The notes beneath the pieces were generated by a model, which did not search any database, had not been told where the DNA came from, and saw nothing but the letters and a program-made list of their open reading frames with translations. This document shows positions 1,851 to 64,000 of a stretch of DNA of 64,000 nucleotides, piece after piece. Position 1 is the first letter of the stretch, and the number at the start of each line of letters is the position of its first letter. The stretch lies in assembly GCA_031213475.1 (NCBI GenBank), contig JARUPZ010000034.1, forward strand, positions 2,870,614-2,934,613. The letters run 5' to 3'. Made by a program: the position numbers and the translations under genes. This DNA is from Nereocystis luetkeana. Lineage: Eukaryota > Sar > Phaeophyceae > Laminariales > Laminariaceae.

Positions 1851-4822
1851 GCGCACGCGCTGCAGCGGTCCATGGTCGCAATACCCGATGGGCACCATCG
1901 CTCATATGCGCCGGGCTGGCGGGATGTTACAAACGTCGGGCCGACCGAGGAGGAAAGCGCACGCGCTGTCGCCGGGCTAGTACCGAGATGCCCGCTTTGT
2001 GCCGACGATGTTCATGCGTCGGGCAGGGGGGGTGTTGTTACAGCGAGTGGTGCCAGGGCAAGAGGTTCATAGCGTTGCGACTGTCGTGACCAGCGCTATG
2101 AGGAGGACAATACGGCGCGAGACAACTGTTCTGATTAGTGTCACGTGTCGGGTCTATTCGAAGGGCAGAGGAAAAGCTTTGCTTAGCATCCTCTGGGTGG
2201 ATCTTATAGGGGCAGGGAGGATCCCCGGTGTGGGAACGCCTTCGGTCTCGGGTACAGAGTCAGTAACGAAGCTCCGGGACCACCCTGTGTTACTAGATAA
2301 ACACCACCAAGTGAGGAAAGAAAGTCAAAGCCAAGCGATCTGTGATGCCTGTCCTATCGATCCCCAGCCCCTTGGGTCCTGCCTTGCCCGTCGTGCCCGT
2401 CAATGTGTCTGTTGTGCTTCGTTGATAGCTCACTCTGGCTGCTTGCAACTACCGCATTACATCGATTCACTTTCTGCGTGACCCGATCATTACTACACGA
2501 AGGCACTTCTCGAACTCTTAAACAACAGGTGCGCCGGTCTCAGAGATCTAACGAGCGCGGGTCCTTTTTAGCGTCTGAGAACTGTACCCTGCTGTGCGAG
2601 TATGCTCTCGAAGTTTTCTTGTGTCCAGCAGTCACGGGAACGTGATGGCCAACGCCCCAACGGGTAGGCTGGACCATAACCGGACTAAGTCCGGCGAAAA
2701 GGCCTCATCCCCTAGGTTTTTCTTAGTGAGTGAGCTCGCGCGAGTCCACACTAACCAGAGGAGATGACTCTCCCTGGTGGCTATCTCCACCGCACCTGGC
2801 CCTCTCGGGGGTCAGGTCGGGTCAACGTGTCCAAGCGCCCGTGGTAACAGCAGCCTGCTCTGCTGTTGTTGCAACGGGAGCTATGGGTGAAATTGGTACA
2901 CGACATGAAATCTGAAAGTGGAAGTGTGGTGAATTTTTACCAGTTCGCCGGAGTGTGAAAAAACAGAAAAATCAAAAAGTGAGTAAATTTCCTTGCCATC
3001 TCTAGAATACCTGATATTCTCGATATTTATATCAGGTACGTATGTATACCTCCTACGTAGAACACTTTGTGGATTCTAGAACATATTTCCGGGACAACTG
3101 TCCTATAGTGAACGATCTACTGCATATTCTGGTTGTGTTACCACGGCAATGCTGTGACTAAGGCTGCAGCGGAACCAATGATACTTGCTCCTTCTGTTCG
3201 GGTTGGGCGATATGCAAAAGATGTATAGACAGCGATTTTCAACAGTTATTGAGTTCGGCAACTCACCAAGTCAAGTTTAAAAACACTCGTTAACATGACA
3301 TGGGTCACCGATCTCCCGCAGAAAAAACACGTCATTTGTACGAGTGCGCGCGAATTCGTTTCCGAAATCACACGTCGACTTGACAATGTACTCTTCAACT
3401 TTACCTTTCCAGCACAGAGGTAGAGTGTACTTGAATGTGTCCCCCCTTCGACACCTCGCCAGACAACAAGGAGAACATAAACCCACAAAATGGGGACATT
3501 AGAGCACCACCTCCCTCTGAAAGTACGGCATTCCATCACTCTATCAAGACAATGCTCAGCGACAATAGCTTGGCAATCGGGGCCCTCCGTTTAGCTCCGT
3601 GAAATATACCAGGCAGGCGAGATGGGACCGCATACAGCAGCTGTTGCATTATTGTGTTTGCTGTGTCAAACGTAGTACTATATATGCTCCTTATAGAAGC
3701 TCTTAGGTTCTTGATGGGTAAGACTGTCTGGACGTGATAAAGTGCCAACTCCGCGCATGATTGCATTCAGCACTGCGCGTAGTGGGAAACCGAAAGTCTA
3801 TATATATACAGCGAAGCCAGTCGTCGCACACTGCATGCCGTGAATCGAAGTGTGTAACCCTCAGGGTTATTTATATCTCAGTACCCGACGCAGTGCGACG
3901 GGGACTGGTTGCTGGGGAATGAGGACTTTCGGGGGATATACCCCATGGTCCATAAGGGAGTAATGAATGCGCCACTACTTGTAGAACACGAGGGGACACA
4001 TGGTTCGTTAAGCATCAAAACCTGGCACGTTCTTCAAGGTTTGACTCTAAAACATCATTAATCATTAATAATTCCTTCCGGTCATGGTCAGCTTCGCAAA
4101 CGAAAGCGATGGTCATGCTATGGATGCACCACTTGACCAACGAATAATTCCAGTCTATTGTAGCTTTAGTAGCTTCAATCTCTCAGCTTCAGGAATATCT
4201 TCTTCAACTGGCGCGTTTCGTAGCTCACTGTGCAATTCCACTTGGTGGGTGTCTGCTGACCACCCGGATCCACCTGAAAGAGAGGGGGGTGTTCCGCGGC
4301 AAGGCAAGGGAAGTATGAGTCGAAAAACAAGGGGCGTTTTCCATGGGATTGGCGGTGTGAAATACAGTACCTGGTATGTCGAGATTTGGCTACAATTAGA
4401 TCATTAGCGCAGTGCCTGTTGTCACGAGATAGATCGAGCTCTGACGGTAAAGTATAGTGGGATGCTAGATATTATTCGTAACATCGATAAAAATAATGAG
4501 GTGCCGTGGTTGTCTGGACGGCAGGAATTCGAGCGTTCTATTATGTTGCGTAACTCGCGTACTAAGATCAAAGGAAAACGCAGCCAGTACAAACTGGTTG
4601 TGTGCGACTTTCCTACGTCGTAACGGCTTCAAATGAAGGTTGGAGCTTGAAAATAATGCACTCGTTAAAAACAATTAAAAACGTTTTCCGAACAATGCGG
4701 GTACTCGGCAATCCCGTGGCCTATCCACCCCGAATTTATTTTGGGGGGCTCCCGCTTTTACAGCCTACAATTAGCAGAGTACCAAGTATATATACCAAGG
4801 CTTGTCACAGTGGCTGGGAATC
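1851..4822. other. Intergenic, no recognisable gene
   Basis: Frames here are short and show no family motif. A perfect 7-bp stem hairpin, CCGGACTAAGTCCGG, lies at 2680-2694. AT-rich stretches fill 2930-3250 and 4010-4080. TACCTGGTA occurs at 4368-4376. Confidence 0.5.
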
Positions 4823-5158
4823 GTGACGGGACGGGACGAGACAGATTCTACTTGTTTGGCGGGGGAAAAAAACGAAAACGGGACGGGACGGTAAAATAAG
4901 GACATAGAAAGTTGGAGGGGCGGGACGGGAAGGGACAGCGGGTGAATAATTTCTCGACGGGACGGGACGGTGAATTTGTTTTCCTTTGGCGGGACGGGAC
5001 GGTAATTTTCTTTTCCCTCGGCGGAACGGGACGTTAAACATTTGTTTCCATGGGGGCACGGGATGGTAAAGATTTTTTTCCTCGGACGGGACTGTAAATA
5101 TTTTTTCCCTCGGACAGGACGGTAAATATTGTTTCCCTCGGCGGGACGGGACGGTATA
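4823..5158. repeat. GGGAC minisatellite array 1
   Basis: Blocks of 'cgggacgggacgg' are separated by short AT-rich spacers such as 'taaatattgtttccctcgg', repeated about ten times with divergence. The long minus-strand frames across it ('RPVPSR...') are by-products of the repeat. Confidence 0.8.
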
Positions 5159-5816: not shown

Positions 5817-6767
5817 CTTCCAGGTACGACGTACTACTAAGTAGTAATATTTCAATTATTTCGTACTCCGTAATTCTTTTTACGTTCAGCTAAATATATC
5901 CTGCCGACGACGTCAAGTGTAGTAAGACCGGGCATATCGTGATACGTAAGTTAGGGGGATGCAGGAACTGGGTCGGAAGGCAGCTTTTTTTGTTCAGGAG
6001 ACTTTTTTCTTTTGTTGTCGTGTTTTCTCCGTTTATGATGAGAAAAAAGGGGGCAGTGGAAAGTTCCTCGGGCAAGTGCGTTTACCCTTCTAGCGGGTTA
6101 ATGGAAGGGAGTAGAGAGTCTCTTGAGTGGGTGGGCGGGGGGGTTTGGGGGGCAGGGGGCGTTCGGGCTTGGTGCAAATCAGTGGGGCGGGCTTGAGTGT
6201 CAGAGCCCTGATTACCCTAATGGTATTCCTGGGGCTCTGAAGCTCCGTTTGGCAAACAAGAACCAGAGCCGCAGGTATACCCTTTCGTACCGCCGAGGGC
6301 AATACGAGAGGAATGTGAACAAAAACACCCACCGCTATCACCGATAGGTGCCGTTGGTGGAGATGCGGCTGGGGCTCCACCGCCGGCCTGTCAGTTGGTT
6401 CTAAAGGTGCCCGGCTGCCGTTGGTTGGGGTAGTTGGTCGTCCGTCCCTCCCGCAGAATAAATACATCAACACCAGCACAGCAGCTACTGCTAAAAATAA
6501 GAAGTAAATTCAATTTCATACCTCGTATATTAAGATGTACATATAGATGATGAAATACGTCAGATGTAAATTCGACTGCTCAAATAGTTGAGACTCAACG
6601 TTGCAAGCTGCTTACTACGCCTCTTCTATACTAAGTATTTCATTTATAGTACCTGGTATGGGGGTTGCGCACAATTTATTTATGATGAAATGTATTTATA
6701 TAGGAATTACTTCTGAAATTTCGTACAACTCGAAAAATCGTACGTAAATATTTTCGTAATCTATGGT
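5817..6767. other. Intergenic with a dispersed-repeat copy at 6548-6630
   Basis: No gene is recognisable. 'gatgaaatacgtcag' at about 6549 and 'ttgcaagctgcttactacg' at about 6601 belong to a dispersed repeat seen again near 34.08, 52.44, 52.67, 52.75 and 60.2 kb. TACCTGGTA lies at 6650-6658. Confidence 0.45.
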
Positions 6768-7145: not shown

Positions 7146-7508
7146 CCAAAATACCGTGATAAGCCTTGATATATACTGTATACCTGGTATACTGTAGTGC
7201 GAGCGGAGGAGCGGGAAAATAGCCATTTGACGTGCGAGGCACTGAAACTAAAAGGCCGTCCCACGGATGCGCTTGAAATTGATTACTTCCAAAGCATACT
7301 CAACAGTCAAATCGTATTCAAGTACAAGAGAAAAAGCCATATGTTTGGGTTGTGTTAAGATGACAACCTTGAAGCTTTTTTTAAACGATTATTTGATATC
7401 GATATCTATGGGGAATGTTTTCCCTTTCAAATCGTTTCATGACGGAAAATTCTCCAAGAACACCCATGCACACGATATAATTCAATCGTTCGGGCGACCG
7501 TATGATAC

Positions 7509-10500
7509 CTGTGGTCCTATTTGAGTCGGAATGTTGTGCCCGTGTTGATCTGCAGAGTCGAGGAAGCCGATGATCTCGTACAGCGACGCATCCTTGAGCA
7601 TTAGCATATGCTTTGACATCTGAAGAAAGTTAGGCAGGAAGACGGAGGATGAGGGCTCTCAATGATGCCAGATCAATGCTGTTAGTAGTAGTGAGGGAGG
7701 TTCCGAGTCTACACTTTTGTCGACAACATGACGCCGACATACCGTAGGGCATTGAGCTGTTGGGAAAAAAAGGTGAATAAATCCTTGAATGCCATCAGTA
7801 GGAAGGCAGGCACTAGCCGGGCGATCCTGGACATTCAATCGGTATTGTCGACATCCATTGCATTGTTTGGGCATCACCCGTGGTCAGAAACGTGTTAACG
7901 GTACCCATGGGCTACGGAAAACTCTGGAGCCCTGAAAATCAGCACACACGATCGTATAGTGTTCTCAGAGCGATGGAAAGTCCTGAGAACAAAACAAACT
8001 GAGAAAATACTGCCTACCTGGTATACGTGCACGTGCATTTTGAGGACAGAAACGTCAAGAGGATAATATAAAACGTGCACCAGCTCGTCAACCAATACCC
8101 CACCTGCTCAGCTAGCGCCAAGAAACATCTCTTTGCGTAGAACCATGTATCCGTGCCAAGCTTCTTCTCGTACGGTTCCAAGGACTTGATGATGCGACTG
8201 ATTCCAAACTCGAAATTTCCCTGAGAAATCATGGCGGTACATGTATGCTATTATGATAATCTCGTTCTTCGCGTGTTCTTGATACAGGTAAGTGTGGATC
8301 TCCTGTATATTGACATTATGCTAAACAGGCCAATCCAAATACTGGAAGTACAAATCCACAAGGGTGTAGGGGCAAAGCGGGTGAGTGGATGAAGGAGCAG
8401 CCCATCGACATACATACAGCTGCCACGACGTACCTCTGGCATTAAGAATGAGCTACGAAGAGCTGACCAAATCAGGCTGTCAGCTCTATTTATTACGACA
8501 TTAGTTTGTACTCCTATTTATACGGGTACGCGTGCCCACTTGGTTAGGCAGATCAAGTGGTAGGACGCCACCCGTGCTGTCGGAAGGTTTTTGTTCGGAC
8601 CCTTGTGAACCATAGCGTGATTCTGCCATGGCTGAGAGCGTGAGAGCATGAGTGGCCAAAACTCAGTGAAAATCGACGAGAAGTGGGATTGCTGAATGGA
8701 TTATACTATGCACATAACAAGCAAACATGGGGGGAGAAATACACCGGTGAGCATAGACAGACTGTTCAGAAGGCCGCCGCGACCAAGAACGTCATGCCTC
8801 AGACATTGGGACCCCAGCGCAAGCAAACTATCAAGAGCTAAAAAAAACAATGTCGCGTTTAATCCGAACGGAAGACACCATGAAACACTTCGGAGCCATC
8901 ATAGTCGAGTCGGTATAGTTCTCACCTTGGCACAATACAGCGTCCCAATAACCAAGTTAACAATGCACAGGTGAAAACACTGCTTGTCGGGATCTTGCTG
9001 CGCCACCTTTTCTTCTTCTTTTTCTATCTGCATCAGGACATGAAATTTCAATCCAATGCAGTGGAACGAATGTAAAATGGTGTATCAGCATCCGCACGTG
9101 ACTTCGAGTAGAATCCCTTGGATAACCGAGCTTTCAACTACGAGGTACAGTGTAGTTCAAACGCGAAATCTTGCATGTTGAGCATTGATGATCGTTCGGC
9201 ATACTGCATGCTGCATACCTTTCTCATTAGTTCCTCCGCCTCCTCGTTTTGACTGATCATGATGTGGCTGACGCATAGGTTCGCCAAGACTATTGCAGGA
9301 ACCTCAAGGATGGTTTCTGCTTGCTTCTTCACGATGGGCTCGTAATAGCGAATGGCCTCCTGCGCAAGGTGCAGTGAGGAAGGTGCAGGCATGCGCCATC
9401 AGATCCCCGGCTCGACAAGAAACTAAGCCAGCGCAAGATAGTGCATGTTCTCTGTGTAGCACCAGTCCGGGGCGGGCACGGGTGTGTGGGTGTGGGTGGG
9501 GGTGGGGGGTACAGGTGTCGACGACGACCGCGACGACCAAGGAAAATTCTCAAGTAGAAATGTTCCCGCAACACAGAGGACCAGCAAGTAGGAAGCGTGA
9601 TCATTACCCGAGTATCGCCCGGGGAAATGCATCGGTAGAGGCACGCATGTATTGATACTGTGCACACTGTACATACTATATATACATACTATATATACAT
9701 ACTACACATACTGATGTACCTTAAACTTCTCCTCCATGAAGAACACGTGAGCTGCGTTTAACTTCCAAGTGTCGTGATCCGAGCAGAATTCTGCCGCCTG
9801 CCTGAAGAGCTTCTCCACGACAGGGTAGTTCTCCCTGTCCCAGTATATTCTGGCCATTGCCATCAATACAGGGATATAGCGCTCTAGAGCCGCATCGTAC
9901 ATCTACCGCCCACAAGTGCAACGGGGGATACAATAGTTAATAAGAACAAGGCGATACAGAAGGAATGAGTTCACGTTTTAGAATACGGGTGCACAAACAT
10001 ACAGTCATGAGCATGGGGCAACTATGCACTGGCCTGCTGTGTTACGCATGTGCTCCAAAATACATGCGTGCAAAATATTGCATTAAATCGACCAACTTCC
10101 TTCCTCGCTTTCAGAGTCCGCTTTTGAAACAGGCTGCTGGCTGAACAGACATCACCGAAACCGTTTAGTGCGCATATTCACAGGAGATTGACCGGCACGT
10201 TGCAATTTTGAGGCGTACCTCGCATCTTGTATCAATGGAGTCACCCTCGCGTGTTCTGCAAAACGACTCAGGCCAAAATATGTGCTCTGCATTTTCACTG
10301 TCTTGATTGAAAGTTAAGACACAGCTGCAGCCACCCAAACGTTTTCAATGGGTCGTTCTCGAAACGTATGATGAGTTAGAAGGAAACACAACACTATCGG
10401 GCGACCTTGGTCTGAACATCTTGAAATTATGGCATTTTGGTATCGTGAACATCTATTTACCCATTTCTGCGTAAGAACCCGCGCGACCTATGAACAGACC

Positions 10501-13500
10501 CCGAACCATCCATAATACTACTCGAGGCTGATGGGTACCAAGGCATAAAATTAAGGATTGACGTTTTCATATGAATGAGTGGGCCGAGCTGGCTGACTTT
10601 CAATTAACCCTTTTAGAACCGCAGTCCCGTTGTGGCGACAAACCACTCAAATTTCAAGTAATTTGTCCCCAAAACGGGACTGCGGTTCTAAAGGGGTTAA
10701 CATCCCCCTCTTGATCATTAACCGGCATGAATTTTGCTCTCCAGTCGAATTCAACCACAGATGACGCACATAAACAAGACTCTTCTAGAATATCTTGCAC
10801 GACCCAAAAATATTTCACTTCGGTTCGTTCTATTTTTCGTGGAGGTACCTGTTACCTGACCTGGTGATAGGTCAGTTTCTCGGAACAACTCAAGCCGTTG
10901 ACCGCTTGCTGCGAAGTGTTTTGCACGAGCAATGCTCACCAGGCACGCGATAACAAAGCACTCCTGTCTCACCTCCAGGCTAGTTTTGATGGCGTCGTTG
11001 TCGCGTGCAATTCTTGCATCCTGTATTTGCTTCGTCAATTGCCGCAACGAATCGATGTGCTTCGATGTCAGTTCATCGTACTGCCGGTGGGGTTGGGTAA
11101 TCACAGCCGATGCGGCGACAAAGTTGGTCGAAATGAGTACTTTCGAAGAGAACACGCAGTGCTCTCTGAGCAATGTACACTTTGGAGCTGTTACCAGGAG
11201 CGACACAGTGGTGAGTTGCAGACTAAAAAAAACAAAAACAACGGCAGCCCCAACAACCTTGGTGACCGGAAAGCCGCATTGAACGGAAAAGGACTACCGT
11301 ATGCTCCGTATGTTTCACCTTACGGTAGGCCTCCTCCGGACTGGTTTGAACCATGATGGCAGCATCCAAGTACTCGTACAGCTCTTCGCTCAAAAACTTG
11401 TACGTGAGGTGACTTGATAAAATCAACATGCCATGAACAAAGATGAGAAGTCGTGGCACAATGTTGTCAAGGGGGGCCAGCGGCCTCAACAACATTTTCA
11501 CTGCATCAATGCAATCACGAACATGTCGTTACTCTACAAGGTAAGCGTTAAATTGGAACAAACTGGTTATCCTACATTGTATACATGAATATATGGTGGC
11601 GCTGCTAGATGATGATTCAACTCCCTTAGGACGCACGACTCTATGCAGTCAAGAACACATCTATACATATATCATAATTTTAAGTTTGTTTCTGCCCAAA
11701 TATAAGCGACGGGAGCCGTGACACCATCCACAGCTAAAGGATAAAAAACAAATCGATATTCATAGAGAAAAAAGGGTGCGTATGTAGGCGAGAACTACTG
11801 TACGTCTGGCTATATATCCCTCCCCCCATGGATGGAGCATGTGACACGGCAAGGGGTCTGAAAAATATATCACATCTCGATGTTGCAACAATAGATACTA
11901 CGGACTTATACACTTCCTTCAAGTGACTCGATATTCAGAAAAACTTGACGGGTGAGTGCAGAGGAAGTACCTACCTGGCACAAGAGATCGCAAGCGTGAG
12001 GTCAAGGGAAGGTCCTGCGTCAGGCAGCGCACTGTAGGTAGCAAACACAGGCAAACTGGGTCGATGGAAGTACGTATTTTGTTGCTGGGCGGAGCACATC
12101 GAATAGCGCATCGAATAGCGCACGCGGGGAAAATCACCTGTTTTCCGCGAGGATGTCGGCGGCGAGTTCGTGGTAGCCGTAGTTGCAGTGCAAAAGCAGT
12201 AGATTGCCGAATGTCTCGGGAGGAAAGGGCGGGTTCGACAGCAGGAAATTGAGTTTGCGGAAGCCTGCTGTCGGATCATCCTCCATGTGTAGGAGAGCCT
12301 GTGCCATTTCCCACGCAACAAGATCAGACACGGTCATGTCAGGAATGGTCACTATATACCCATAATTAACAACTTGAACATGTGTCTCACTTCATCTATT
12401 ATTGTCTCGTTGCTGCTCCTACGAAGTTGTTGAGGTGTTTATTTGCGTTTGTACCATCCCTTTTACTTTCCAGCTTCAGGGCAAGTCCTGGTCAAAGGTG
12501 TCTTCCCGTCTCCCCCCCGGTACGCGCCTTCATTTTTTATCGCGCATAGGGTTTCAGTATTCCCACTGCTCGTCGATGTTTATCGAATGTTGCTAACCCA
12601 TGCTCCCGCACTTTATTTTTATGTACGAAAAAATTAGTACGAGCATGTATGTGCACTCGGAGATGATCGAATCCACAAAAAAAAAAAGAAGACATGAGGA
12701 CAGCCTACCATGCCACCGGGAATGCCTTCTGTTAAGACGATGTAATATACATATATTCTCTACCAGGTATATATTTATAGATATATATCCGTGGCGACAT
12801 CCGATGAATCAAAGTTGACTGAGCTCGACAGATTTATGAGCGCACCTGATTGTGAAGAGTGACGGGGTCCAACTCCTGTTCTCTGCGTGGTGGCATGTCG
12901 CTGAGGGCTTCCACCGCCATTTCTGAGTTTTTTCTTGTGTGTTCAATGGCTGCCCTCAAATTAAAGGCCTCAATCAAGCAAGTTTCCTGGCCGTAGTAGA
13001 CAAAACACGAAAACGTAAAGTGTTGTAAGGTGTTTTAGTGTGCGGAAAGAATATGTACCCCTGCCAAGCGGACTTTGGTCGATCCAGACGAATTCGCCAA
13101 ACATCGCCGCTATAAAAGTAACCAGTACACCTGCCGGACTAATATTTAGGTCGGCAGGGTCCCAAAATTCAAATAGTATGGGTTCCGCAAAGATCTTGGC
13201 ACGCTCATCGTCTTTAACGCGAGATTGTGTGCCGTTCGAAGTCAATACGGAAACAAGATTGCCGTTCTGCAAGGAACTTCACGCAAACGAATTTGTAAGG
13301 AGTAAGCTGCATCAGATGAGTTAAGCACGTGGTATCTGCTACTATAAAATAAGCTACTAATGGACTCCGCGCCTGGTGTTGTGAAGAATTGTCACGGAAA
13401 TTTGAATGCAGTGCAGATATATTGCTGGCGCCAAACCCTTTCCAACATCATCAACGCCTTTGAAGCCCAATGCACGTGCTCACCTGTAAAACTTGCGAAT

Positions 13501-16013
13501 TCCCAACGGAGCGCACGTCAATTCCATCGGTGTTACTGCCGACAGATAACTCTGGGTGATCGCGTACACCCCTTTCGATGATCTCATCTGAACGGGTGGC
13601 ACGCAAGGTACAACACCGACGTGAGCACAATCCTCAGGACAATCCATCCAACCATTTAATCCATACTGTGTCTCACAAGTGGCATGCCATTCTTCGACGC
13701 TCATGGGTAGGAAGCAGAACAATCCACTCCCCCTGAAATATGAACAGGACCTGCTGCGAGTATTGAGACTTCATGTAGATAAGCAAGCATATTGAAACCG
13801 AATATAATACGCAGACTCGAGGTATTGCGGCAATCTTTCCAGGCCCGTGGAAACGTGGCCATTTATTTTCATTAGCTCTCGTGATGTAGAAGCCACTTCT
13901 GACATCAAGGAATACTCTTTTAAGCTTTAGAAACATTCAGTTCCTCCGCAGGCAAGACTCGCAATTCAAAACCTGGTGCGATAAAACACGAAACCGAGGC
14001 GAACGAATCACAATGATCAGGGCGATACAAAGTCGTCACGTCAACTGCATCGGGCCCGGCAACCGGCATAAGCCGAAGAAAGAGCTTGCAGGTGTGGCTC
14101 ACCGACATGTTTCAATGCAGGGGCATACTGCTTATCCTTGAAGTAACATAGTGCAGTATTGTAGGCGAGATCTGCCTGATATCCAAGGGTATGCATTGCG
14201 TCCGCGTACTTCTGTCTGGCGTCGTCGTAGTCTGCGTAGGGAAGGCCACGGGAAACCGACGTAACACATTTACCAATTAGAGCACTCCAAGGTATACGTT
14301 GCCTGCGTATTGGCAGGTGTTCCGATGTCAGGTAAACACATCCGTCGAAATTGTCAATACTATAGTGTCATAACAGGTCATGGATGAGGTTAGAATTGCA
14401 TGCCCAGCCGTGAAAAAAAAAACCTGATGCTTAAAATACGCATGCGTAGAGCAGACAGCAAACAACTTTGATTATTAAAGGTCGAACCACCCATTGACAC
14501 GGGAAGGCAATCAACAAAAAATGGTACTGATCGGTTGCTACGTAACAAATTGCGGTGGTGCTCTAATCCAGCACTCGGTGAGTTGGAGTGTGCAGTGGGT
14601 TGAAATGTGCTAGCATCTAAAACGCGAAGGCAGTGTGAACCGCGCGAAGGCACCTTGGTCTTTGAAGGAAATGGAGGCGTAGCTGATAATGGTGTCCGGA
14701 TCGTCGCTGAGGCACTGATCTACCAGGCTCTTGCATGCTGGTAACTCGTCCTGCTCGTATTTGATCGCGCCCTTCGAAAGCAACAGGTGGGAAGCAAGCA
14801 TTCAGGGTCAATGAACTCCTGCAGAACTGCACCCTCATGTTTGGGGACAAAATACTTGGGACATAGTCTGGGGTCGTTTTTGCAGTATGATGAATATGTA
14901 GTCATAATATCTCGCCGTAACATACCTGCAACGCAATCATCCTCTGCTGATATTGTGGGCTGTCGACTCGCACCGCTGCTCTCGTCGCTTCCGGATATAT
15001 CCCGGCCTTGTACAACGACTGTGCAAGATATACCTGATCGAAGTGAAACGTGTGGATCGTGCGTCGTGCGGGTCAGGGTACAGGCCACCGCTACACCAGT
15101 TTCTGGCGAAGACTCCGTGATTTTTCTTGCATTTTACCACCACATTCCTCACCTTGTACTCTTCGACAGTGGGGCACACCTTGACGAGTTGCTCGTACAT
15201 CGTGGTGGCGGCTTTGTAGTCTTGCATCTGGTAGTAGCAGTAGCTCAACAGAGACAAGGCCGCTCTGTTTCGTGGAAAATTCTGTTGACCAAGCGCACAT
15301 AGGTACGAATGTGAATGAGATGCGCTACGACAGCGGTGTCGGGTACTTATTGCCGATGGCAGGTGCGTACTCTCAACCTAGTTTACGGTTCAGAAGCACC
15401 CGTGAACTACAACGATGAGTACATGTGAAAAAGTTGTTTGTATATACCAGGTATAGCATTACCCATCATTAATACTACTTTTGTATTCCCTCGCGTACTA
15501 TTATTAATAGTGAGAGTAGTATCTACAACAGTACTCGTACAGCAGGATACCTGGTGTGTCATATTCATACAATGCATTCTTAATTATACAACGCGCAATG
15601 CCCTACAGAGAAAGTGGCCGACGGCAAATTCTTCGCTGTCTACTACTGTAGCTACCAAAAGCCTACGTGACTACGCAGGCTAGTGGGTAGTGATATGCGA
15701 TCAACAGAGCACAACAGGAAACTGTGAATATGAATATGATACGACACGATGCTCGTGCGTACTGCTATGCTACTATTAATATTACACTATTAATAAATAC
15801 TATTAATACTGTGGTACCGTACGCGAATAATATCTTCGACGGTTCGGTATCTTTCTCGAAAAATGACGCCGACGTATCACGGCCTCCACAGCAACCTCTC
15901 ACCCCTAGTTCAGAGGTCAGCAAGTCCACAGCTTCAGGAAAACGGCCGTCTTTAATTGCAGTGTACACCATCGACGTGTATTGGCCCTCGGGCACCATAC
16001 CGTTCGTGGACAT
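7509..16013 (-). CDS. IFT70: Intraflagellar transport protein 70 (IFT70/TTC30/DYF-1), last exon not found
   Basis: IFT70 is a TPR protein of the IFT-B core complex that carries cargo in the flagellum and is needed for axoneme assembly. I place 15 exons: 16013-15903, 15281-15153, 15033-14926, 14771-14654, 14231-14103, 13587-13484, 12986-12846, 12298-12138, 11412-11319, 11080-10973, 9902-9720, 9359-9219, 9027-8926, 8220-8104, 7619-7509. All have GT donors and AG acceptors, the phases agree, and they total 1857 nt (619 codons). Conserved IFT70 blocks appear in order: 'EGQYTSMVYTAIKDGRFPEA' at the start, then 'HPELSVGSNTDGIDVRSVGN', 'NPPFPPETFGNLLLLHCNYG', 'NLCVSHIMISQNEEAEELMR' and 'FGISRIIKSLEPYEKKLGTD'. 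The family is usually about 640-670 residues, so 20-40 C-terminal codons below 7509 are missing from this model. Introns run from about 100 bp to 1.1 kb and contain a MITE and a SINE fragment. Confidence 0.93.
9661..9715. repeat. ATACATACTATAT microsatellite in an IFT70 intron
   Basis: Three imperfect copies of 'tatatacatacta' lie just downstream of an exon boundary of the IFT70 gene. Confidence 0.7.
10608..10696. mobile_element. piggyBac-type MITE with intact TTAA target duplication
   Basis: This 89-bp element has terminal inverted repeats of about 36 bp (CCCTTTTAGAACCGCAGTCC at the left, its complement at the right) and is flanked exactly by TTAA on both sides (10604-10607 and 10697-10700). 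CCC/GGG ends and a TTAA duplication are the signature of the piggyBac superfamily. It has no coding capacity and lies in the IFT70 intron between the exons ending at 10973 and beginning at 9902. Confidence 0.85.
12490..12640 (-). mobile_element. SINE body fragment in an IFT70 intron
   Basis: The stretch 'ggtacgcgccttcattttttatcgcg...' through 'gttgctaacccatgctcccgc' parallels 52180-52270 in the same orientation. The tRNA-like head and the A-rich tail are not evident here, so it is a truncated or decayed copy. Confidence 0.5.
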
Positions 16014-16954
16014 GATCTGTAATGTTGTGTGTTCTGTGTTGGTTTTTGCGTGGGAATGGTGGATCTATTTTCCCCCCCATCCCCGAAACCGAGCAGCCAC
16101 AACTTCATGCTTGAAAACCCTCGTGCAAAAATATAACAATATCTGTTTTTTCGTTTTTTCGCACCCCCTTTCAATGGGGATGACTATTAATAGGTTCATG
16201 CACGATGAGCCATAGGGAGCCGGAGCTGCTTGCCAAGCACAAATTGGTGATGACGGGGGGTGGGAAAAAGCAGGTTCACATTTGCGACGTCTCGACCTGG
16301 GATGATGATTCGCCGCAAGTTCAGCACGGCATCAGCGGAATGCTCCAAGTAACAAGTCGCTACACACCGAGCAAGGCAGTCAAGGACTTTCCCAGGTTCA
16401 GACTTACGCTGTCTGCTAAAGCGGATGCAGCACAAGTACTCCCCTTCTTGAACAACCTGCGAAGAAACAAGCAGGTGCGGTACGGTCACACAATATTTCC
16501 TTGTCGCTTTGTAGATGTGAGCGTCGGACCCACGGTTTTCGCTGTGGCGTCTGATCAATTGCACTCTACTGTTCGGTGCTGCTTGCTGTACCAAGTCGAC
16601 TACAACAGCAGTATTAATATTAATATTAATACGTACCTGGTACTCGTACATCATATCAATAGTGAAGGAACGCACAACAGCAGTAGTATCGAGAGTGTAG
16701 TTCAACGTGTGTATTCTAGGGTAGGGTACAAGTATTTACAGAGCTTCGGGGCAGAGGTCAAGGTCTACCAGGTGCAAAGTGCCAGGTCGAGGGAGTGTTT
16801 CACAAGCGATCACTACGATTCGCACTGTTTTCAGTACTGACAAATATGGTGTACCAGTACTATCTGTATATTCTCCGTACTGGTCGTGTACCTGGTAGCT
16901 TCTCGTACCGTGCTTTAAAACATCAAATTTAAATATTAGCAAGGCTTTTCGCGG
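16014..16954. other. Region upstream of IFT70, no further gene found
   Basis: It should hold the IFT70 promoter, but I see no clear TATA element. It is rich in TATTAATA (16185-16192 and three overlapping copies from 16612) and TACCTGGTA (16634-16642, 16889-16897). The 211-aa plus frame at 16205-16840 has no recognisable domain. Confidence 0.4.
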
Positions 16955-19297: not shown

Positions 19298-19378
19298 ATT
19301 CGCAAATCGAAAAAAATCTGGTCAGATTTTGCATATCGTATCATCGTACGGAACACACGATTTTTTTTTATAAGAGTA

Positions 19379-19907
19379 CCGTAATCATGCGAAGGTTGGC
19401 ACCCATCGGAAGGTTGGCACCCATCGGAGAGATAGCACCGGGGCGCGATAAAAACACAAGGTAGAAACATGCAATCGTGTTTTCGCACCCCCATCGGAGA
19501 GATCACACCCCGGTGTGATCTCTCCGACATAAATAGAAATTTGAGGGCCACCGCAGCGGGTCTGTAGTAGGTAATGTTATCATTTCTTTCATACTCCGAT
19601 GAGATATCACCAGTGCGCCACTCCTCTCAAACGTACTTTACCAACGCATGGTAGGTACTTTACCAACGCATGGTAGGTACTTTACCAACGCACGGTAGGT
19701 CAAGTCGTTTTAGGTATCGCACCCATCGGAGAGATCGCACCGGGGGTGCGCCAAAATAGAAGAACGGCATGATTTAATTGTGTTTCCGCACCCCCATCGG
19801 AGCGAACGCACCCATTGGAGAGATAACACCGGGGTGCTATAAAAAACACTACGTAGAACCATTTAAAAACGCGATCGCACCCGGTGCGAACCTTCGCATG
19901 ATTACGG
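19379..19907. mobile_element. TA-flanked TIR element (Tc1/mariner-like MITE), copy 1
   Basis: The 529-bp element begins CCGTAATCATGCGAAGG and ends with the exact inverse CCTTCGCATGATTACGG, with TA on both sides. Inside, 'gcacccatcggagagat.gcacc' motifs recur in both orientations, and a 22-bp unit 'gtactttaccaacgcatggt' is repeated three times (about 19632-19700); the second copy of the element has only one such unit. No coding frame. Confidence 0.8.
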
Positions 19908-22238
19908 TAGCTGCTGCTGGGCAGCAGCACACCACCAGCAACAATTGCTGCTACCAGCCACCGCGAGCAGCAGCAGCAGAGAGTGTTTATCGCAAGACGC
20001 ACGTCGTCCTAACGACGGGGAGCTTGGCATATTCCTGGCACAGAGAGACAGCCACGAAACATCCGGTGTACCAGAATATTTTGACGAAGCACGGTATGGT
20101 ATGGTATGATATCATAACATATCATGAACACAAAAAATAGGAATACTGTTATTTTTCGCAGAGCAGCAGCACACAGCTGGCAGCAGCACACAGCTGGCAG
20201 CAGGACAACAACGACACCTGCTGCTAGCAACGGCGGCAGCGAGTGGCAGCAGCAGAGAGAGTATATCACACGACGCACGTCGTCTGCCTTTCGTATGCAA
20301 GCACACGGGGTCTGACACAAACATACCTGGTACAGGGAGTGGTTACGAGACTCCCGACGTCCCAACGCAGCACAACAAGCGAGCAACTGATATTATTGAA
20401 CAGCAGCAGGGGCAGAACATGATCATAGCATAGCAAGCAGCAGCAGCGAGGCAGCACAGCGACAGCAACTTATAGATATATAGAGCATTCACACGACACG
20501 CGTCGCTCAGATCCCGCTCCACACGCGAGCTTCTTACGGCAATCTGTGATCCAGAGCACAGCCACTACCTCCCGAAGCCCGGCACTACCTCCCGAAGCAC
20601 GGCAGGGTACAGGATTTTATGTGCTGTGCAATACCTGGCAGTACAGCAGAGGATTTATTTGCTATGCGATCATTTTTACTTCATTCTGTATTTGATGCGG
20701 CAGAGAGGCTGCGTGTATGTGTCCTCCTTGTGGTCTTTTTGGCTTGTGAGACCCAACGATTGTTGGTGGCCGTGCCGACCCTACGAAACAGCAGTTGCTG
20801 TTCGTCGTGGCCTGCTTTCGAATCACGGAATCGGTAAGAGGCATCAAGCGCACAGCCAAATATTCAAAGTTGCAAATGAACGAGACCGATTTACGAAAGA
20901 ACGAAGAAAAAAGAACGATTCGTGTCCAACACTGAACCAATCAATAGAGGGCAGCCACCAAGTCACCAAGATATTTTTCGAGACAAAATGAAGGATTTTC
21001 ATGTTTTTCTGATGTCTGTCCTCTTTGGATTATGATCGTCTTTTAAGGCCACGCTGGCACCTAAGCGTCTCCTGGTCGCCGGGTTTCCGGTTACTCTAAT
21101 CTCTAGATGTTTTATTGGATAAAAAAAAAAAGACTATTTTAACACGCTGCGTTTAGAGCTTCGGCTGATTCGTGCTGACTGGAGAGGGACGGTGACTTGC
21201 TAAAGGTTCATCACATCAGCTTGTGTTTCTCTGGAGATTGATCCCCCGCAGGTTCGCCACAGAGGCCTACACCTCGACTCAGAAGTGCTGCAGTGGTCGA
21301 TATTGGTCAAAGTTTTGGATGCTCAAAATGAGACTAAAACAACCCGCAGCTGAACGTTTGCACTTCACTTGCAGACAGCTACAGCCCTTCACAGGAAACT
21401 ACAGCCCGTGAAATTGAGGGATGCTCCTGATGGGGTGTGTGAGGGCGTCGGGTGCGCCAGACAGCAGTCGTAGGCAACCAGAAACGACTCGCGGGGTGTT
21501 TTCGTGTGTTCGAAGTTGCGAGCGAATAGCACAAGAATCTCGCAAAAATGTTCAAATGCTTATTTTCACGCGCGGGAGTATATTACAATGGCTACATTAC
21601 CGATGAAGAAATGGCCTTCGCTACAAGATTGCTATTGTCCAGGCAGATGATATGTCCCTTTTCGAGTCGTCGTCGAAGATGCTGCGGGAGGCCGAAGTAT
21701 GTTCCTATGATAAGTACTCGTAGGTAGTAAGTTTTTGGGCCCAAAAAAAAGGTCTAAAAAGCGCAGGATTCCTTCGTTTGCATCGATTATTCCAAAACTT
21801 CGAAATACGGATCTTGGTTGCAAATCCCTTACTCTAAATCCAAGTCGTATGTATATGTTGCCGACCTACGCGATGATACGTGACGGTTATTGAGGGTACT
21901 ATTAATAGCGTTCCCTTAAGACTGCTGCTCGCCCGTTGAAACTCTTGTTCCTCATCGCAATTTGTATTCTCCTTTCTACGAATATCATGTTTCCTACAAA
22001 CGTCCCGTAGATTAGACAGCCAGCAAACAGAGTGCACATAATACGCGAACAACATGCCCCTGGTGCCAGTCATTTCAGGTTCCATCGCCACAGCCAAAAC
22101 CGTGACCCATGGGGCCATCTCTATCGAATTGGGTGATGCTGTTGTGCCTATTTCGTATGTTGTGGCAAGTGATGCTGTTTTAATAGCACCCCTATTTTAT
22201 CGAGCGCAGATCTCGCGCTTCAGAATACCGGTGCCCTT

Positions 22239-30160: not shown

Positions 30161-30739
30161 GACCTGTCACCGCGATGGATCCAGAATCTCGGGCTTGTGA
30201 GACTTCCTTGTTGATCTACGACCAGCGGGCGTGACTGCACAGGGCAGGGCGAAAGACGGGCATCAAATAAGACGGCGGTTGAATGAATGAACACGTAATT
30301 ATAAATTACAGATGGGATTTGCACTCATCGACATTCTGAACCGGTTCTCAATTGAAGGATACTTCAAGGGCAGTTTGTATGCCTTGTAGATGTGCTGGAA
30401 TGGATAAGCCAGGGATTAATTGTGGTTAGGCAGGTGGCAGGGGGGGGGTCAACGGGAAGGCCCTTTGCCGCGAACAGCACCCGGGATCTACTAATATACA
30501 CCATGGTACCAGGTATAAACATACTTACGTTTACCCTTTTCCGAAAATCACTTGATTATAAGGACCTGCCTCGCGCTCAGCGAGTCTCCCACGATTTTTT
30601 GTCGCTTCTACGATATTTGCTCTCTTCGCGGACTTTGCTTTCTTTGCGTGCTTGCTTCTCGTGCCACACTTTTTTCCCCGGAACAATGGAAAAAAAAACT
30701 CGGAAAAAGAAAAGCGGTTTGGGAGGCTCTCTTTCGCTC

Positions 30740-35775: not shown

Positions 35776-35777
35776 TA

Positions 35778-37482: not shown

Positions 37483-37494
37483 TATACCAGGCAC

Positions 37495-47600: not shown

Positions 47601-50600
47601 CATTTCTTATTTCCTTCCACACTGCAGTACTCGTAATCTACTGCTGAAATGTCGGGCAAAAGTAGTTGAACCGTAACGCGGGAACCAAGAGTGGTACCAT
47701 AATTTGGAGACGACTTCGTACGGAAAGACTCGGGCGAGGTCCCACCTTGGCATTCCCGTTAAGAAAAGCACCTGCAAATAGACTACCAACGTAAAACGGC
47801 GAGTGTGGGAGAAACCGTGGATATAATATATACCTGGTACCTGATATTAATAGCAACCAACCGAGGTGAATACTATCTGGTATTGCATGCCGCGTTGAGA
47901 TAGATACCAGAATCAGCGCGGGTGCAATAACTTGGGTGGAGTCTCCAGCCGTGGCTAAGAGGCCTCATTTTATTTCAACCGAATACTTGAATTTGTAAAG
48001 TGGAGGCGAAGCGGTACCTCACTATTAATACAATAGTCTACTGCTACAGACCGCACCATCCAAATGCCACGATTTTCGCCCATGCTTCACTCGGCAGCTC
48101 TAGCCTCGCCCTCTCGAAAAACTCTACATCCTTCGGGTTTGATCCTGGCCACCCACCCTCGATGTAGTGCATTCCTGTCATGGCGCCACAAGTACAAGGC
48201 GAAGAGCGTACCCATCAGGAATCAGGACACGATAACAAGGCAGTTTTGTACGGGCCGTTTTATGCGATGCATTTTTGGCAAAAAAAAGGCAAATTTTCAT
48301 ATTATGGTTGTTTTACTTGCCAAAATAGCTAAAGACTTGACAAGCTTGTACTTCGATATTTCCGTATGCCTTCCCCTTCGTTGGCAATTTAAGGAAATGA
48401 AACGTGCGGTTTCATATGCCATTTGAAACCAATCACGCCAACGCAAGGTCATACGATTCACATGCCGGTGCGCTAGACTATTGATAGCACGAACTCCAGC
48501 AATACAGGGGTTAGATGGTGGTCCTGACAGCTGACGGTGGTGCCGACTGCACTGTTGAAGGGGGTTGATGGCGCGGGTGATGAATCCCCGTGTGGGTGTG
48601 GCACGGATGCCGTTTGGAGTTGGTGCTTAAGTCAACCCAAACCAAACAGCCGCCCCAGCCTCCTCATGACAACCTACACGTGACTATGGTCGGGCTGGAA
48701 GGGTTGTCGACCTTTGGGGTCTACCTACCACTTGTGCCTGGATTCCTCTCCAGCCCACCCATTCCTCGACGACGGTGTCGTCTACTGTCGGCTCTCCACT
48801 GTACGGGGTTTGAGGGCACTACGTGGCGAAAAATTTAAAGCTCTTTGCTACAGCAGTATGTCATTGTGTTAGACCTATGCCAATGGGACAGCGAAGTTTC
48901 AATAAAAAGTTTGAATTTCAAAGATACCCGCCGAAAAAAAAATTAGAACACGCTTCCTATGGGCCACGTGAAAAAAAAAAAAAGTTCCTAAGACCTATGC
49001 CAATGGAAACGCGAAGTTCAAAAGTTTTTTTTCAAATATATTGCTTTGAAAAAACGGCCGAAACCTTTCTCGTACCGCAGCTGTGGGGGGAAAAAGCGAA
49101 AAATGCTTGATTTTTTATTTTTCCCCCAACGGCTGCAGGCGGCGCAATTTGTTTTTTCTGGTTGCAAATTGTTAACACGGTGATCGAAACCAGCTCGTGC
49201 GACGATCGACGCTCGATCCCGACATAGACTCAGCCCACGGCCAACCCGCTTGGTATCTGGCAAGGCCAACGAATATAGATGACGGTCTCGAAGATAACAG
49301 GTGGATCCATGGTCTAGGGGGCGAGAGCTTGCCGGCGGCGTCCTACGGTATCCTCCCAAACCTGAAAAAAAGCCTATTTTTTGCCATTCGAAACGGATGG
49401 AGAAGTTTTGTCTTCTGTTTTGTGCAAACCAGCGGCCAATTGTTTTTTTATCACACGCCTGGTCAGCTCCCGCCACATGACACCGGCCATGGTGTGAAGA
49501 CGGTGACCCTAGGGTGGGTCGGAGCCCCTAACGAGCGCACTCCGTTCAGAATTCATGACGCAATCGTTGGTTTTGTTGATCGATGTCTGTCGAGGACTCG
49601 GAATCTCGCCGCTTCGAACCAAAGATCGGCCTGAGTTTTTCTTTTTTATTGCAACTTCGCTGTACCATTGGCATAGGTCTAACTTTGGGAAAAACCCGAA
49701 AAAAGCAAATCTGGGGCCTTTGGGAAAAACCCGAAAAAAGCAAATCTGGGGCCGATGTTCAACATCGGCTTGAGAAAAACTCAGGCCGATCTTTGGTTCG
49801 AAGCGGCGAGATTCCGAGTCCTCGACAGACACTGATCAACAAAACCAACGACTGCGTCATGAATTCTGAACGGAGTGCGCTCGTTAGGGGCTCCGACCCA
49901 CCCTAGGGTCACCGTCTTCACACCATGGCCGGTGTCATGTGGCGGGAGCTGACCAGGCGTATGATGAAAAAACATTTGGCCGCTGGTTTGCACAAAACAG
50001 AAGACAAAACTTCTCCATCCGTCTCGAATGGCAAAAAATAGGCTTTTTTTCAGGTTTGGGAGGATACCGTAGGACGCCGCCGGCAAGCTCCCGCCCCCTA
50101 CCTAGACCATGGATCCACCTGTTATCTTCGAGACCGTCATCTATATTCGTTGGCCTTGCCAGATACCGAGCGGGTTGGCCGTGGGCTGAGTCTATGTCGG
50201 GATCGAGCGTCGATCGTCGCACGAGCTGGTTTCGATCACCGTGTTAACAATTTGCAACCAGAAAAAACAAATTGCGCCGCCTGCAGCCGTTGGGGGAAAA
50301 ATAAAAAATCAAGCATTTTTCGCTTTTTCCCCCCACAGCTGCGGTACGAGAAAGGTTTCGGCCGTTTTTTCAAAGCAATATATTTGAAAAAAAACTTTTG
50401 AACTTCGCGTTTCCATTGGCATAGGTCTTCGTCGAGAGAACTTATTCGTGAAAGTGTGGCAAGACTTGGCCACATTTATGTTGCCAAAATAGCAACTATT
50501 TTGCTATTTTGTTGTTTGTGTCGTTAAAACAGCCCTAATACAAAAACTGATGTATGTACTGTACAAATACTTCCCTGGTACATCGATACAGCAGTATACG

Positions 50601-52417: not shown

Positions 52418-52800
52418 GTTTCTATGTTTTTATAAAATGATGAAATACGTCAGTCAGCTGTGAGTTGGACTGTTGGACTGATTAATAAAATTCTATGTGG
52501 TGTGTGTTTGTTCTTCACATAAAACCGTTCTTTCTAGCCGTCGACACATCCCACAGCACAACAACCAGTGTCCTTGCCGATTCTTCAATCCTACCAGAGA
52601 TACGAGCACAACAAGTTCTTCTGTGGTCACAAAGAAAAATAGTAGTTGATACCTGGTACTACTCAAGTTTGTAAGCTGCGTAGTAATACGTCTCGTCTAT
52701 ATATCCCATTTTTACAGAATTTTCAACTTCTGGATGGTTTTATAAAATTATGAAATACGTCGTCAGCTGTGAGTTCGACTGATTATATATATATACCATG
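52418..52800. repeat. Dispersed repeat, two partial copies
   Basis: 'atgaaatacgtcagtcagct' with 'gtgagttggactg' at 52437-52475 recurs at 52750-52785, with 'gtttgtaagctgcgtagtaa' and 'tacgtctcgtctatatatcc' in between (52668-52710). Relatives lie at 6.55, 34.08 and 60.2 kb. Confidence 0.6.
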
Positions 52801-53095: not shown

Positions 53096-53118
53096 TGTTG
53101 TTGTTGTTGTTGTTGTAT

Positions 53119-54430: not shown

Positions 54431-55026
54431 ATGTGCGAAAACAAAAAGAGGGGCCGTGTTACCTGGTACCAGGTACCTCTTTGGACGAAATAGCCACGAA
54501 AACGAAAAGAGGGGGCGAGTTAGCTGCTACCTCTTTGGACGAAAAAATAGGGCCCGTGACGGTATTAAACTGAGTACCAGGTATCAAATAATAGTCCTTT
54601 AATTTTCGTCCATAGTCGTATGAAGGTATTTGCGTAATTGGATTACATAGTGTGACATTAAGTCTAAACAGTCGCGTGGTATATACCACTGCACGCGGAA
54701 CTCTCGGGTAAAATAAAAACGTTATCGGTTGCTGGTACGATCGTATCATGCAGAGTGTTGTGTTGTACGACACCTCGTACATTTCAAACCGCCCCCCATT
54801 GAGACGCAGAGGAATAACCGATCAGCTGGTCCATGAAAAGCAGAACACCTAGACGCATGACACGTCCACTAGACCGACTACAACAGTAGCGGACCACTAA
54901 CAATAAATAGTGTAATACTAATAGTCTAGGTTCGTACACAAAATAAATATCCAGCGGTATAAACGCATAGTATGACTGCTGCAACGCCAGCGGGGCCGGA
55001 TACGGGCACGGCTGATACGTCACACG
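54431..55026. other. Intergenic, no gene
   Basis: A tandem 'ttacctggtaccaggtacct'/'ctacctctttggacgaaa' duplication lies at 54460-54545. Nothing else is recognised. Confidence 0.4.
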
Positions 55027-59216: not shown

Positions 59217-59806
59217 TTCATCCGCTGTCGGTTCTGGTTGATATGTCCGCTCGCCAGGAAGGATACCGTCCTGCAGGTCTGTATCTCCTTCCTTCGCTCA
59301 CAATAGAACCGCAACGAGTTCGAATGGGGCAGGGGATGCGAGCGAATTCGTACGTTCCGTCTGGAGTTTGGACGATACACTTTGGACACCATAAAAAATG
59401 CTGGGCTGAAGAGACGCAATTGACGCCGAGCGAAGCGAAGGAGTCTATACGTCTACTGCTGTGTGAGGACTACTGCCGTGTGGGCCTACCGTAGTAACAT
59501 ACGACTACACGACATGACTACGACTACATACGTGTACGCAACAGGTAATGCTGCTGTGGGCACTGCTGCACCTCTGGAGTACACCAGGTACTACACTAAA
59601 AAGACACATAATGGACGGGAATACAATCACCGTTTGTTTTTTTTTCGAAATATCAAACGGTTATTATATTTCCGGCTATAGTTGAATGCACAATATAATA
59701 ACGTACCTGGTAACATGCAACGAACCTGCTAGTACGCCATAAATTCAATCCCGGCAACGCCACAGACCACCAATGCACACTCTTCTACTACTCTCTTGTG
59801 GCGGCC
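59217..59806. other. Intergenic, no gene
   Basis: A few 'tactactg/cagtag' palindromic bits and TACCTGGTA at about 59704 are present; nothing coding is recognised. Confidence 0.35.
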
Positions 59807-62157: not shown

Positions 62158-62194
62158 ACACATAGTAGATACCTGGTAGGTCTTAATCACATCA

Positions 62195-63290
62195 TGATTC
62201 AGTCGAACACTACGCCGATGATGCAGGAATTGTCTCGAAGTCGGCTGAAGGGCTCGCAAAAATGATGACAGTCATCGTGACTGTCTTCGAAGCAGCAGGC
62301 CTCACGGTGTCGGAAAAGAAGACTGAGACAATGGTCCTACAAACACCAGACCGGACAACCCTCGCACCACCGCTCGTCATCGAAGCGGCAGGTCAGAGAT
62401 ATAAGCAGACGACCCAGTTCTTATACCTAGGCGGCGTTATCCACGAAAACGCTGCGCTCTCGCTCGAAATCGACCGACGGATCCGCCTCATGCGAGCATG
62501 CCTCAAACGGTTCGGCCCGGAGTTGTATGATAGGACGACCGCCCCCCTTAGCCTTAAAGTCCGAATGCTGAAGGCCGAGGTGATTGAGACCCTGCTGTAC
62601 GGGTGTGTGACGTGGACCCTCAGAGCGGAACACTTTGCCAAGCTTCGAACGGCTCACCACCAAGTCCTGTTGCGAGTCATTGGCTTCGAGCACCGACTTC
62701 GTACTGACCATGCCACCCTCTCGTACGCGAAGGCCCTCAAGATGACACGTTGCGAGAGCATCGAAACGACCATTCGTAAACGGCGGCTCTTCTTTGCGGG
62801 GGGCGTGGCACGGCAAAGCAAGGAGCGATTACCCAGTCGGATAATGTTCGGGACGATAGCTGGTGCGGAGAACCCGAGACCAGGCGGACAGTGTAAGACT
62901 TGGCATAGATGCATAGTCGAAGACCTTAGGGAGTTCCGACCCACCGAAGGGTCAACGGAAGTTGCCCCCTTGGTGTTTGGAGTTGAGACCGCGTTGTGGT
63001 CCACTGCAGCCAAAAAGGCGGGGAAGTGGTACCGGGGGGTCCTTGAAGCAGCCGAACGGTTCATGGTGAGGTGGCACGAGGCTGAGGCTGAGATGAGTAG
63101 GCAGCGTCGCGCATCCGCCGTGGAGGGTGTCCAAGGGAAAGGGGGTGGAGGGGGCAACAGGAGAAGTGGCAGAAAGCCCGACCAAGGGAATGCGGAGAGG
63201 GGGGGGAACAGGAGGGGTAGAAGGGAAACGACGGTAGACGAAAGTAGGAAGAAGATGGCAAACAGGGTAGCAAGGCACCAAGTCGACTAG
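62195..63290 (+). pseudogene. Non-LTR retrotransposon ORF2 fragment, RT catalytic box to C-terminus
   Basis: The frame enters at the RT palm motif 'HYADDAGIVSKSAEGLAKMM' (YADD carries the catalytic Asp pair) and runs open for about 360 residues through 'AAGLTVSEKKTETMVL', 'FLYLGGVIHE', 'LKVRMLKAEVIETLLYGCVT', 'RKRRLFFAGGVARQ' and 'RLPSRIMFGTIAG' to a Gly/Arg-rich tail. The first ATG is at 62262, after the catalytic box, so this is a 5'-truncated LINE. It shares its domain with 53649-54430 but differs clearly in sequence, so the two are separate insertions of related families. The reading frame is intact, which suggests a fairly recent insertion. Confidence 0.85.
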
Positions 63291-64000
63291 GAAGTAGAAT
63301 ATGACCATACTACTAGTGCTACCAACTGGTGCAGCTGGTTCGAACGTGGTCTTCCCTTGTCTTCTTCTCTTTTTTTTTTCTTTTTTTTTCTTGCGCTGAC
63401 TCTCCGTGATTTTCATTTTATTTTATTTTTCTCTTCCTTTTCTGATTGAGAAGCCGTATACTGAAGGAGCCGTGTGGCGTGGTTGGATGACGAACCTGCT
63501 CTGCTCGTTTCGTATTGTCTGACGCCAAGGGGCTGGACATAGTTGACGAACGCAGGGCGGAGACGGCAGTCTGGGTAGCAAGGTACCAGGCGGATTAGCA
63601 GGGAGAACCTGGCTATACTACTCGTACCACAAACTGCTGCCGCCACCTGGAAGGTGCTTTTTGGGCTTTGGTCTGCCTGTTATTTCCCCTTTGTTTTTTT
63701 TCCTATGTTATTGTTTTCCTTGGTTCTTTGTCTTACTCTGTTTACAAGCAGTGAATGGTGTTTTTTGTTTTTTTTTTTCTTTTTTCCAGCTCGTTCTTTT
63801 TCAAGTGTTGGCTACCTCGCCTGCGGGGGGGGGGCACGACAGATTGTTTCTCCTAGGTTTTGCTTTCATTTTTTTTCTTTTTCTCTTTCGATTTGTCTGC
63901 GTACTTTATTTTTGTTTTCTCTTTGATTGTTTCTTTTCGTTTCACTATTTCATAGATTGCGTATGTCGTGCCTGTCGTATCTAGTATGATGACATGGCTT
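63291..64000. other. Retroelement 3' flank, T-rich, no gene
   Basis: Long T/C-rich stretches (63365-63450, 63660-63960) dominate. 'gtagcaaggtaccaggcgg' at about 63570 echoes 'gtagcaaggcaccaagtcg' at 63270, a short local duplication. No coding signal was found. Confidence 0.45.

Follow-up and report, generated by a model that had tools for sequence, protein, structure and literature searches.

Transposons of the Tc1/mariner superfamily cut DNA with a stagger of 2–4 nt. According to PMC7827188, the first nick of Sleeping Beauty and mariner is made 3 bases inside the element, so that each donor flank keeps a 3' overhang of 3 nt, to which the scars are identical; the consensus scars of Sleeping Beauty are given as TACAGTA and TACTGTA (PMC4378557). 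In this work, we compare these and other described systems with the nine-base palindrome TACC(A/T)GGTA (TACCWGGTA, where W is A or T), which is strongly over-represented in a stretch of 64,000 nucleotides of Nereocystis luetkeana (Phaeophyceae, Laminariales; assembly GCA_031213475.1, contig JARUPZ010000034.1, positions 2,870,614 to 2,934,613 of the forward strand), hereafter referred to as the window. The word resembles the Sleeping Beauty and Tc1/mariner footprints in being bounded by TA and in having a self-pairing overhang with W at its center, and TACWGTA is itself enriched in the window. It differs from them in its insert of 5 rather than 3 bases and in its density of about one copy per 2.1 kb, and no source element was seen in the window.

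Harbinger elements are flanked by a CWG duplication. In PMC3016246 and PMC3432063, Harbinger3_DR is described as integrating into the palindrome AAACACCWGGTCTTT. This target shares with TACCWGGTA the palindromic core ACCWGGT and its W center; it differs in the outer bases and in being a target rather than a multiplying word, and the window yielded no element of this kind. The HIP1 sequence of cyanobacteria is a short palindrome dispersed at a very high density. HIP1 and TACCWGGTA have in common that they are short, dense palindromes, but HIP1 is bacterial and has another sequence.

A 23-base chain of the word matched 40 stretches in prokaryote genomes (L001–L040), all of which proved to be heptamer arrays, and had no match in viral contigs. 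The bacterial arrays share TACCTGG units with the window, but they are tandem, usually keep one center and are more than ten times less dense. Several of these assemblies are rich in (TACCTGG)n arrays, with up to 89 TACCWGGTA in 2.5 Mb and with variants such as TACTTGG. Among the literature matches listed, judged on their titles and the beginnings of their abstracts, none appears to treat TACCWGGTA as a genomic motif.

Abundance and Sharpness of the Word

The exact word occurs 30 times in the window, while 100 dinucleotide-preserving shuffles gave a mean of 0.24 and a maximum of 2, and an order-2 Markov model predicts 0.64. The over-representation that the initial annotation had read by eye is thus confirmed, and it is strong. 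When overlapping copies are merged and site 36967 is removed as a duplicate of 32279, 25 independent loci remain, 22 of which are single copies. The same duplicate was left out of the flank counts, and the non-tandem flank counts also omit the flanks of tandem copies; in the counts of TA-bounded palindromes, of enriched words and of local clustering, copies with the 12-base flank of an earlier copy were counted once, which gives 29 copies.

The word is also sharply defined. Counting both strands, the central base of TACC-N-GGTA is A in 30 cases, T in 30, C in 2 and G in 2 (60 W against 4 S, where S is G or C), and the single-base neighbors of the word, apart from the A/T center, occur 0–3 times each. 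In a scan of spacers from 0 to 8 bases, TACC-N-GGTA was found 32 times and every other spacer 7 times or fewer. The word is not the most extreme one of the window, since TATTAATA has 21 sites (15502–55168) against 0.32 expected; arrays of the pentamer, (CGGGT)n, are likewise highly ranked among the over-represented words.

All of the following sites are given without strand and, unless otherwise noted, were located by exact word match. The word has the form TACCTGGTA at 6650..6658, 8015..8023, 16889..16897, 20324..20332, 37763..37771, 38387..38395, 40099..40107, 52650..52658, 59704..59712 and 62170..62178, and the form TACCAGGTA at 12761..12769, 15445..15453, 30507..30515, 37811..37819 and 54575..54583. 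TACCAGGTA is also found at 32279..32287, within a duplicated element (31462–32600), and at 36967..36975, in the other copy of that element (36147–37288), so that according to both word match and self-comparison these two sites represent the same event. Compared with the 24 positions first listed, 15 were exact and nine had to be shifted by 1–4 bases (30504 to 30507, 37759 to 37763, 38386 to 38387, 40213 to 40214, 41559/41566 to 41557/41564, 47832 to 47831, 54461 to 54460 and 62169 to 62170); sites 32718, 36967, 37811, 40099, 54467 and 54575 had been missed. For a palindrome, the remark that copies lie on both strands says little.

The DNA of the window is of eukaryotic type, its genes having short exons and introns. 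Stop-to-stop open reading frames (ORFs) of 150 or more codons make up 29.7% of the window and contain only 2 of the 30 copies (binomial probability 0.0023). A fragment of an mRNA-cap guanine-N7 methyltransferase is encoded near 26.1 kb, its exons being split by GT-AG introns as judged by eye, and the triple site 27656–27678 lies between two of these exons, i.e., in an intron by the same reading. The earlier statement that copies avoid exons is backed only by a proxy, namely ORF length and this one gene, because the self-trained coding model retained only nine ORFs. The GC content of the window is 49.8%, and up to 50 bases from the loci it averages 43.6%.

The self-comparison of the window revealed a single repeat carrying the word in both its copies, the one embedding 32279 and 36967, and only these two sites have flanks in common beyond the word itself. 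The idea that all copies belong to one dispersed repeat family, which the initial annotation had named as an outcome that would overturn its claim, is thus excluded in this window.

Palindromes Bounded by TA

TACCWGGTA belongs to a wider class of words in which a self-complementary core X is bounded by TA on both sides. Such TA-X-TA words were observed 86 times against 37.8 expected for X of 3 bases, 54 against 10.1 for X of 4 and 48 against 9.5 for X of 5 (2.3-, 5.4- and 5.0-fold, respectively). At each of these inner lengths TA ranks first among the 16 possible outer dinucleotides, the runner-up ratios being 1.62, 1.57 and 1.45, whereas the non-palindromic TA-X-TA words are 144 versus 118.7, 196 versus 148.5 and 169 versus 148.5 (ratios of 1.21, 1.32 and 1.14). 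TA on both sides of the insert is given at 30 of 30 sites by the definition of the word. For X of 3 bases, each of the four cores with the highest enrichment is self-pairing. The enriched words of the class are TACCWGGTA, TATTAATA, TAGWCTA, TATSATA, TACWGTA (22 against 8.8) and TACSGTA, the latter only mildly (17 against 8.0, two of the 17, at 19377 and 19903, being the own ends of a TA-flanked element described below). The class is a set of particular words and not a general rule. Of the 11 other palindromes obtained when the half-site of TACCWGGTA is permuted, all have 0–1 copies save CTACTGTAG, with six, which contains TACTGTA.

The non-palindromic TACTCGTA is enriched as well, with 16 sites (11371–63626) against 2.0. 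As for TATTAATA, it is often embedded in ACTATTAATA or CTATTAATAG, at times in tandem; presumably TATTAATA and CTATTAATAG fit a MEF2-type MADS consensus, or else TATTAATA can be taken as a TA-TTAA-TA scar.

Words of this class are also joined to each other. Copies of TACCWGGTA form four tandem junctions (27656, 27663, 41557 and 54460), in each of which the overlap is exactly one TA, and the central base changes between T and A at two of the four. One of these arrangements is TACTCGTA-TAGTCTA-TACCTGGTACCTGGTACCAGGTA (27641..27678), in the putative cap methyltransferase intron, with three overlapping copies whose centers are T, T and A. Two overlapping copies form TACCTGGTACCTGGTA (41557..41572), two others, with the central base switched, form TACCTGGTACCAGGTA (54460..54475), and in TACCTGGTACCTGATATTAATA (47831..47852) a site is followed by a tandem copy one base off and by TATTAATA. 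Different TA-bounded words are likewise joined via common TAs, most strikingly at 16612..16648, where the chain TA-TTAA-TA-TTAA-TA-TTAA-TA-CG-TA-CCTGG-TA-CTCG-TA, which includes site 16634, shares every TA. The same holds for TACAGTACCTGGTA (TA-CAG-TA-CCTGG-TA, with one TA in common; 4363..4376) and TACGTACCTGGTA (TA-CG-TA-CCTGG-TA; 40210..40222), and three TA-bounded palindromes abut in TACTGTA-TACCTGGTA-TACTGTA (7174..7196). More in general, the words cluster within about 22 bases.

The flanks and the imperfect copies of the word carry further signals. Among the 50 non-tandem flanks of exact sites, the base at +1 is Y (C or T) in 42, the base at +6 is T in 26, and TA stands at +6 in 14, against a TA background of 0.079 at that offset; if all 30 sites are used, tandem flanks included, T at +6 reaches 0.58. 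Near-copies of the word number 36 against 12.9 expected (2.8-fold), with 18 transitions against 4.4 and 18 transversions against 8.5. In the flank lists, which omit the near-copies overlapping exact sites, 37 near-copies (74 flanks) have Y at +1 in 56 flanks.

Possible Origin of the Word

It is possible, and in our opinion this is the leading although still doubtful explanation, that most copies of TACCWGGTA are scars left by the excision of cut-and-paste transposons that target TA and have the 5-nt self-pairing overhang CCWGG. According to this model, a transposon would enter at a TA, duplicating it, and on leaving would cut a few bases inside its own ends, so that each flank would retain a short overhang. 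If this overhang were CCAGG or CCTGG, the two flanks could pair C-G and C-G around a single A.A or T.T mismatch, whose repair to A or T would give TA-CC(A/T)GG-TA. A uniform scar would be expected from self-pairing overhangs only, and other TA-target families might have added TACWGTA, TACSGTA, TAGWCTA, TATSATA and TATTAATA. Since the scar contains two TAs, a re-insertion would yield tandem copies with a common TA and a newly chosen center. We infer the transposase and its stagger of 5 bases, the way in which the flanks pair and are repaired in the case of this word, and the very origin of the word as a scar. By analogy, the word would have the same design as the Sleeping Beauty scar with a 5-base overhang, and the rules of a uniform scar and of repair in either direction would apply to it; given its 5-nt insert, we speak of a word that may work like a Tc1/mariner footprint and do not class it as one.

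Several observations are in agreement with this model. Among them are the enrichment of TA-bounded palindromes above those with any other outer dinucleotide, the self-pairing cores of 3 bases, the W center, the tandem copies with one common TA and, at two junctions, a switched center, the chains of different words, and the published chemistry of Sleeping Beauty. The scarcity of sites in long ORFs is expected of 7-base insertions, and the excess of near-copies with its transition bias is what the decay of scars would give and appears to favor it. The only usable comparison with related copies concerns the TACCAGGTA site at 32718..32726: the whole word lies within a 19-base length difference, and not among substitutions, with respect to two copies that have no word; these are near-identical and represent one lineage, the gap fits an insertion as well as a deletion, and it is not a bare TA. 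The paralog pair 31452/32279 was considered as another empty-site test and was discarded, as the homology stops there.

Other findings weigh against an origin by excision. Comparison of the starts and inverted-repeat scans revealed no CCWGG-ended element in the window, and of the 29 other TACCWGG starts only the duplicated pair 32333/37021 belongs to a common family. No DDE transposase was among the Pfam matches of the 195 stop-to-stop ORFs of at least 95 codons in the window, a scan that reports families rather than positions and yielded few Pfam anchors. The 5-nt insert exceeds the 3-nt stagger of Sleeping Beauty and mariner, and the sole TA-flanked family identified in the window has CCG ends, whose predicted scar is the mildly enriched TACSGTA. 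The class is weaker beyond the named words: X of 4 bases with G or C inside is found only 13 times against 7.5. Moreover, TAs are shared at 15 of 136 word ends, a rate not above that of 18 words for 118 TAs lying 2–9 bases away (summed by eye), so that shared TAs are as much a sign of clustering as of nesting; nesting is accordingly a weaker proof, and the view that these TAs arise by nested insertion alone was rejected. Lastly, the preference for a second TA at a distance of 7 bases outward (14 of 50 flanks) equally fits an extended protein site, and T at +6 is found in 20 of 74 near-copy flanks against 26 of 50 exact-site flanks (Fisher p 0.008), although decayed scars should carry this T.

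This last contrast appears to favor the main rival explanation, to which we give lower weight but which we regard as a tenable one: a dimeric DNA-binding protein, such as a transcription factor or a chromatin-architecture protein, might recognize R-TACCWGGTA-Y (R, A or G), with selection keeping intronic and intergenic sites. The sharpness of the word, its symmetric flank and the T +6 signature present at exact sites and missing from near-copies would all be accounted for, and regulatory modules commonly show palindromes clustered as they are in the window, within about 22 bases; the putative MEF2-type fit of a second word, CTATTAATAG, would also agree with this reading. What such a protein would not explain is the TA boundary common to several unrelated palindromes, or why tandem copies stand at exactly 7 bases with a switched center; in addition, near-copies are in excess at every position and biased toward transitions, unlike what a matrix that tolerates changes at some positions would give. 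We consider it quite improbable that the sites are targets or relics of a Harbinger-like transposon. The core of the Harbinger3_DR target comprises the same 7 bases as that of TACCWGGTA, W center included; still, a target must pre-exist insertion, so that insertion alone does not multiply the word, the outer bases are TA..TA at the window sites and CA..TC in the Harbinger target, and the 64-kb window showed no element enclosed by TACCWG..CWGGTA. Equally hard to credit is a mixture of causes, in which the compositional heterogeneity of TA-rich introns would be joined by one or two genuine binding words. The lower GC content around the loci and the enrichment of AT-only palindromes such as TATATATA (14 against 1.36) speak for such a mixture, but composition does not select CCWGG, as the near absence of the other half-site permutations makes clear.

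The initial annotation had also proposed a micro-repeat multiplied by slippage. In the form of a 7-base unit, (TACCTGG)n, that spreads in this way or is copied locally, we disfavor it as the least probable of the explanations. The 40 bacterial stretches with three overlapping units demonstrate that arrays of this kind exist, and in five of six bacterial genomes with such arrays the word is commoner than its reversed control (the sixth, G002, has 82 reversed words against 63). However, one central base is kept across the first three units in 36 of the 40 arrays (L007, L030, L034 and L035 are mixed), and the window does not behave as a heptamer microsatellite, given that 22 of its 25 loci are single and that two of four junctions switch between T and A; slippage does not scatter single copies. 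The density differs too, with 18–89 copies per 1.9–5.7 Mb in the six bacterial genomes, i.e., at most one per 27 kb, against 30 per 64 kb. Slippage, one of the options of that annotation, is poorly supported. A protein-binding site and a transposition-related site are both retained; it is the TA-X-TA class, absent from that annotation, that gives transposition the greater weight.

If the copies are scars, they would represent a countable fossil record of excision, and their density, their decay and the choice of central base could tell, with no need of genetics, how fast transposition and repair proceed in a lineage; as binding sites, they would rank among the commonest protein–DNA contacts of the genome. 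A broader idea, which we regard as rather unlikely, would combine the two: scars of several TA-target families might be dense enough to be among the genome's most over-represented short words, and one family, with a 5-nt self-annealing overhang longer than those described for Sleeping Beauty and mariner, might leave finished 9-bp palindromes in introns and intergenic DNA, its scars acting as a steady source of new and uniform protein-binding sites.

Mobile Elements and Other Features of the Window

A DNA element with TA on both sides, inverted repeats, ends CCGTAATCATGCG and CCGTAATCATGCGAAGG and internal CCCATCGGAGAGATC repeats extends over 19377..19909, and a second copy of this CCGTAATCATGCG-ended family, with an insertion of 1.14 kb, over 35776..37484. 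This element shows that what appears to be a TA-target family lives in the window, with ends other than CCWGG.

The duplicated element of about 1.14 kb (31462–32600 and 36147–37288) has copies 98% identical and was recently mobile; the copy at 36147–37288 sits in another element, with an empty counterpart near 19575. Its GC-rich 3' end is also present in a third, partial copy (32666–32832), and the element is perhaps Helitron-like. The inverted-repeat element GACCTATGCC (48868–50429 and 55465–56304) was considered as a source of TAGWCTA scars and was rejected, as its flanks carry no TA duplication. It is of the fold-back type, with GACCTATGCCAATGG at its ends and inverted arms some 330 bases long, and a 9-base target duplication may flank one of the copies (seven of nine bases by eye).

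No Rfam family matched the window at gathering scores, a tRNA scan with bacterial settings found none, and for a reverse-transcriptase-like ORF of the window no relatives could be confirmed among viral contigs. At 4789–7175 and 15470–16616, weak inverted pairs bounded by TA were noted. A short inverted-repeat element at 10604–10700, with TTAA flanks and CCC ends, is piggyBac-like in outline, and the pentamer CGGGT/GACCC arrays at 16971–17834, which are mutually inverted, are arranged in higher-order units of 36–51 bases.

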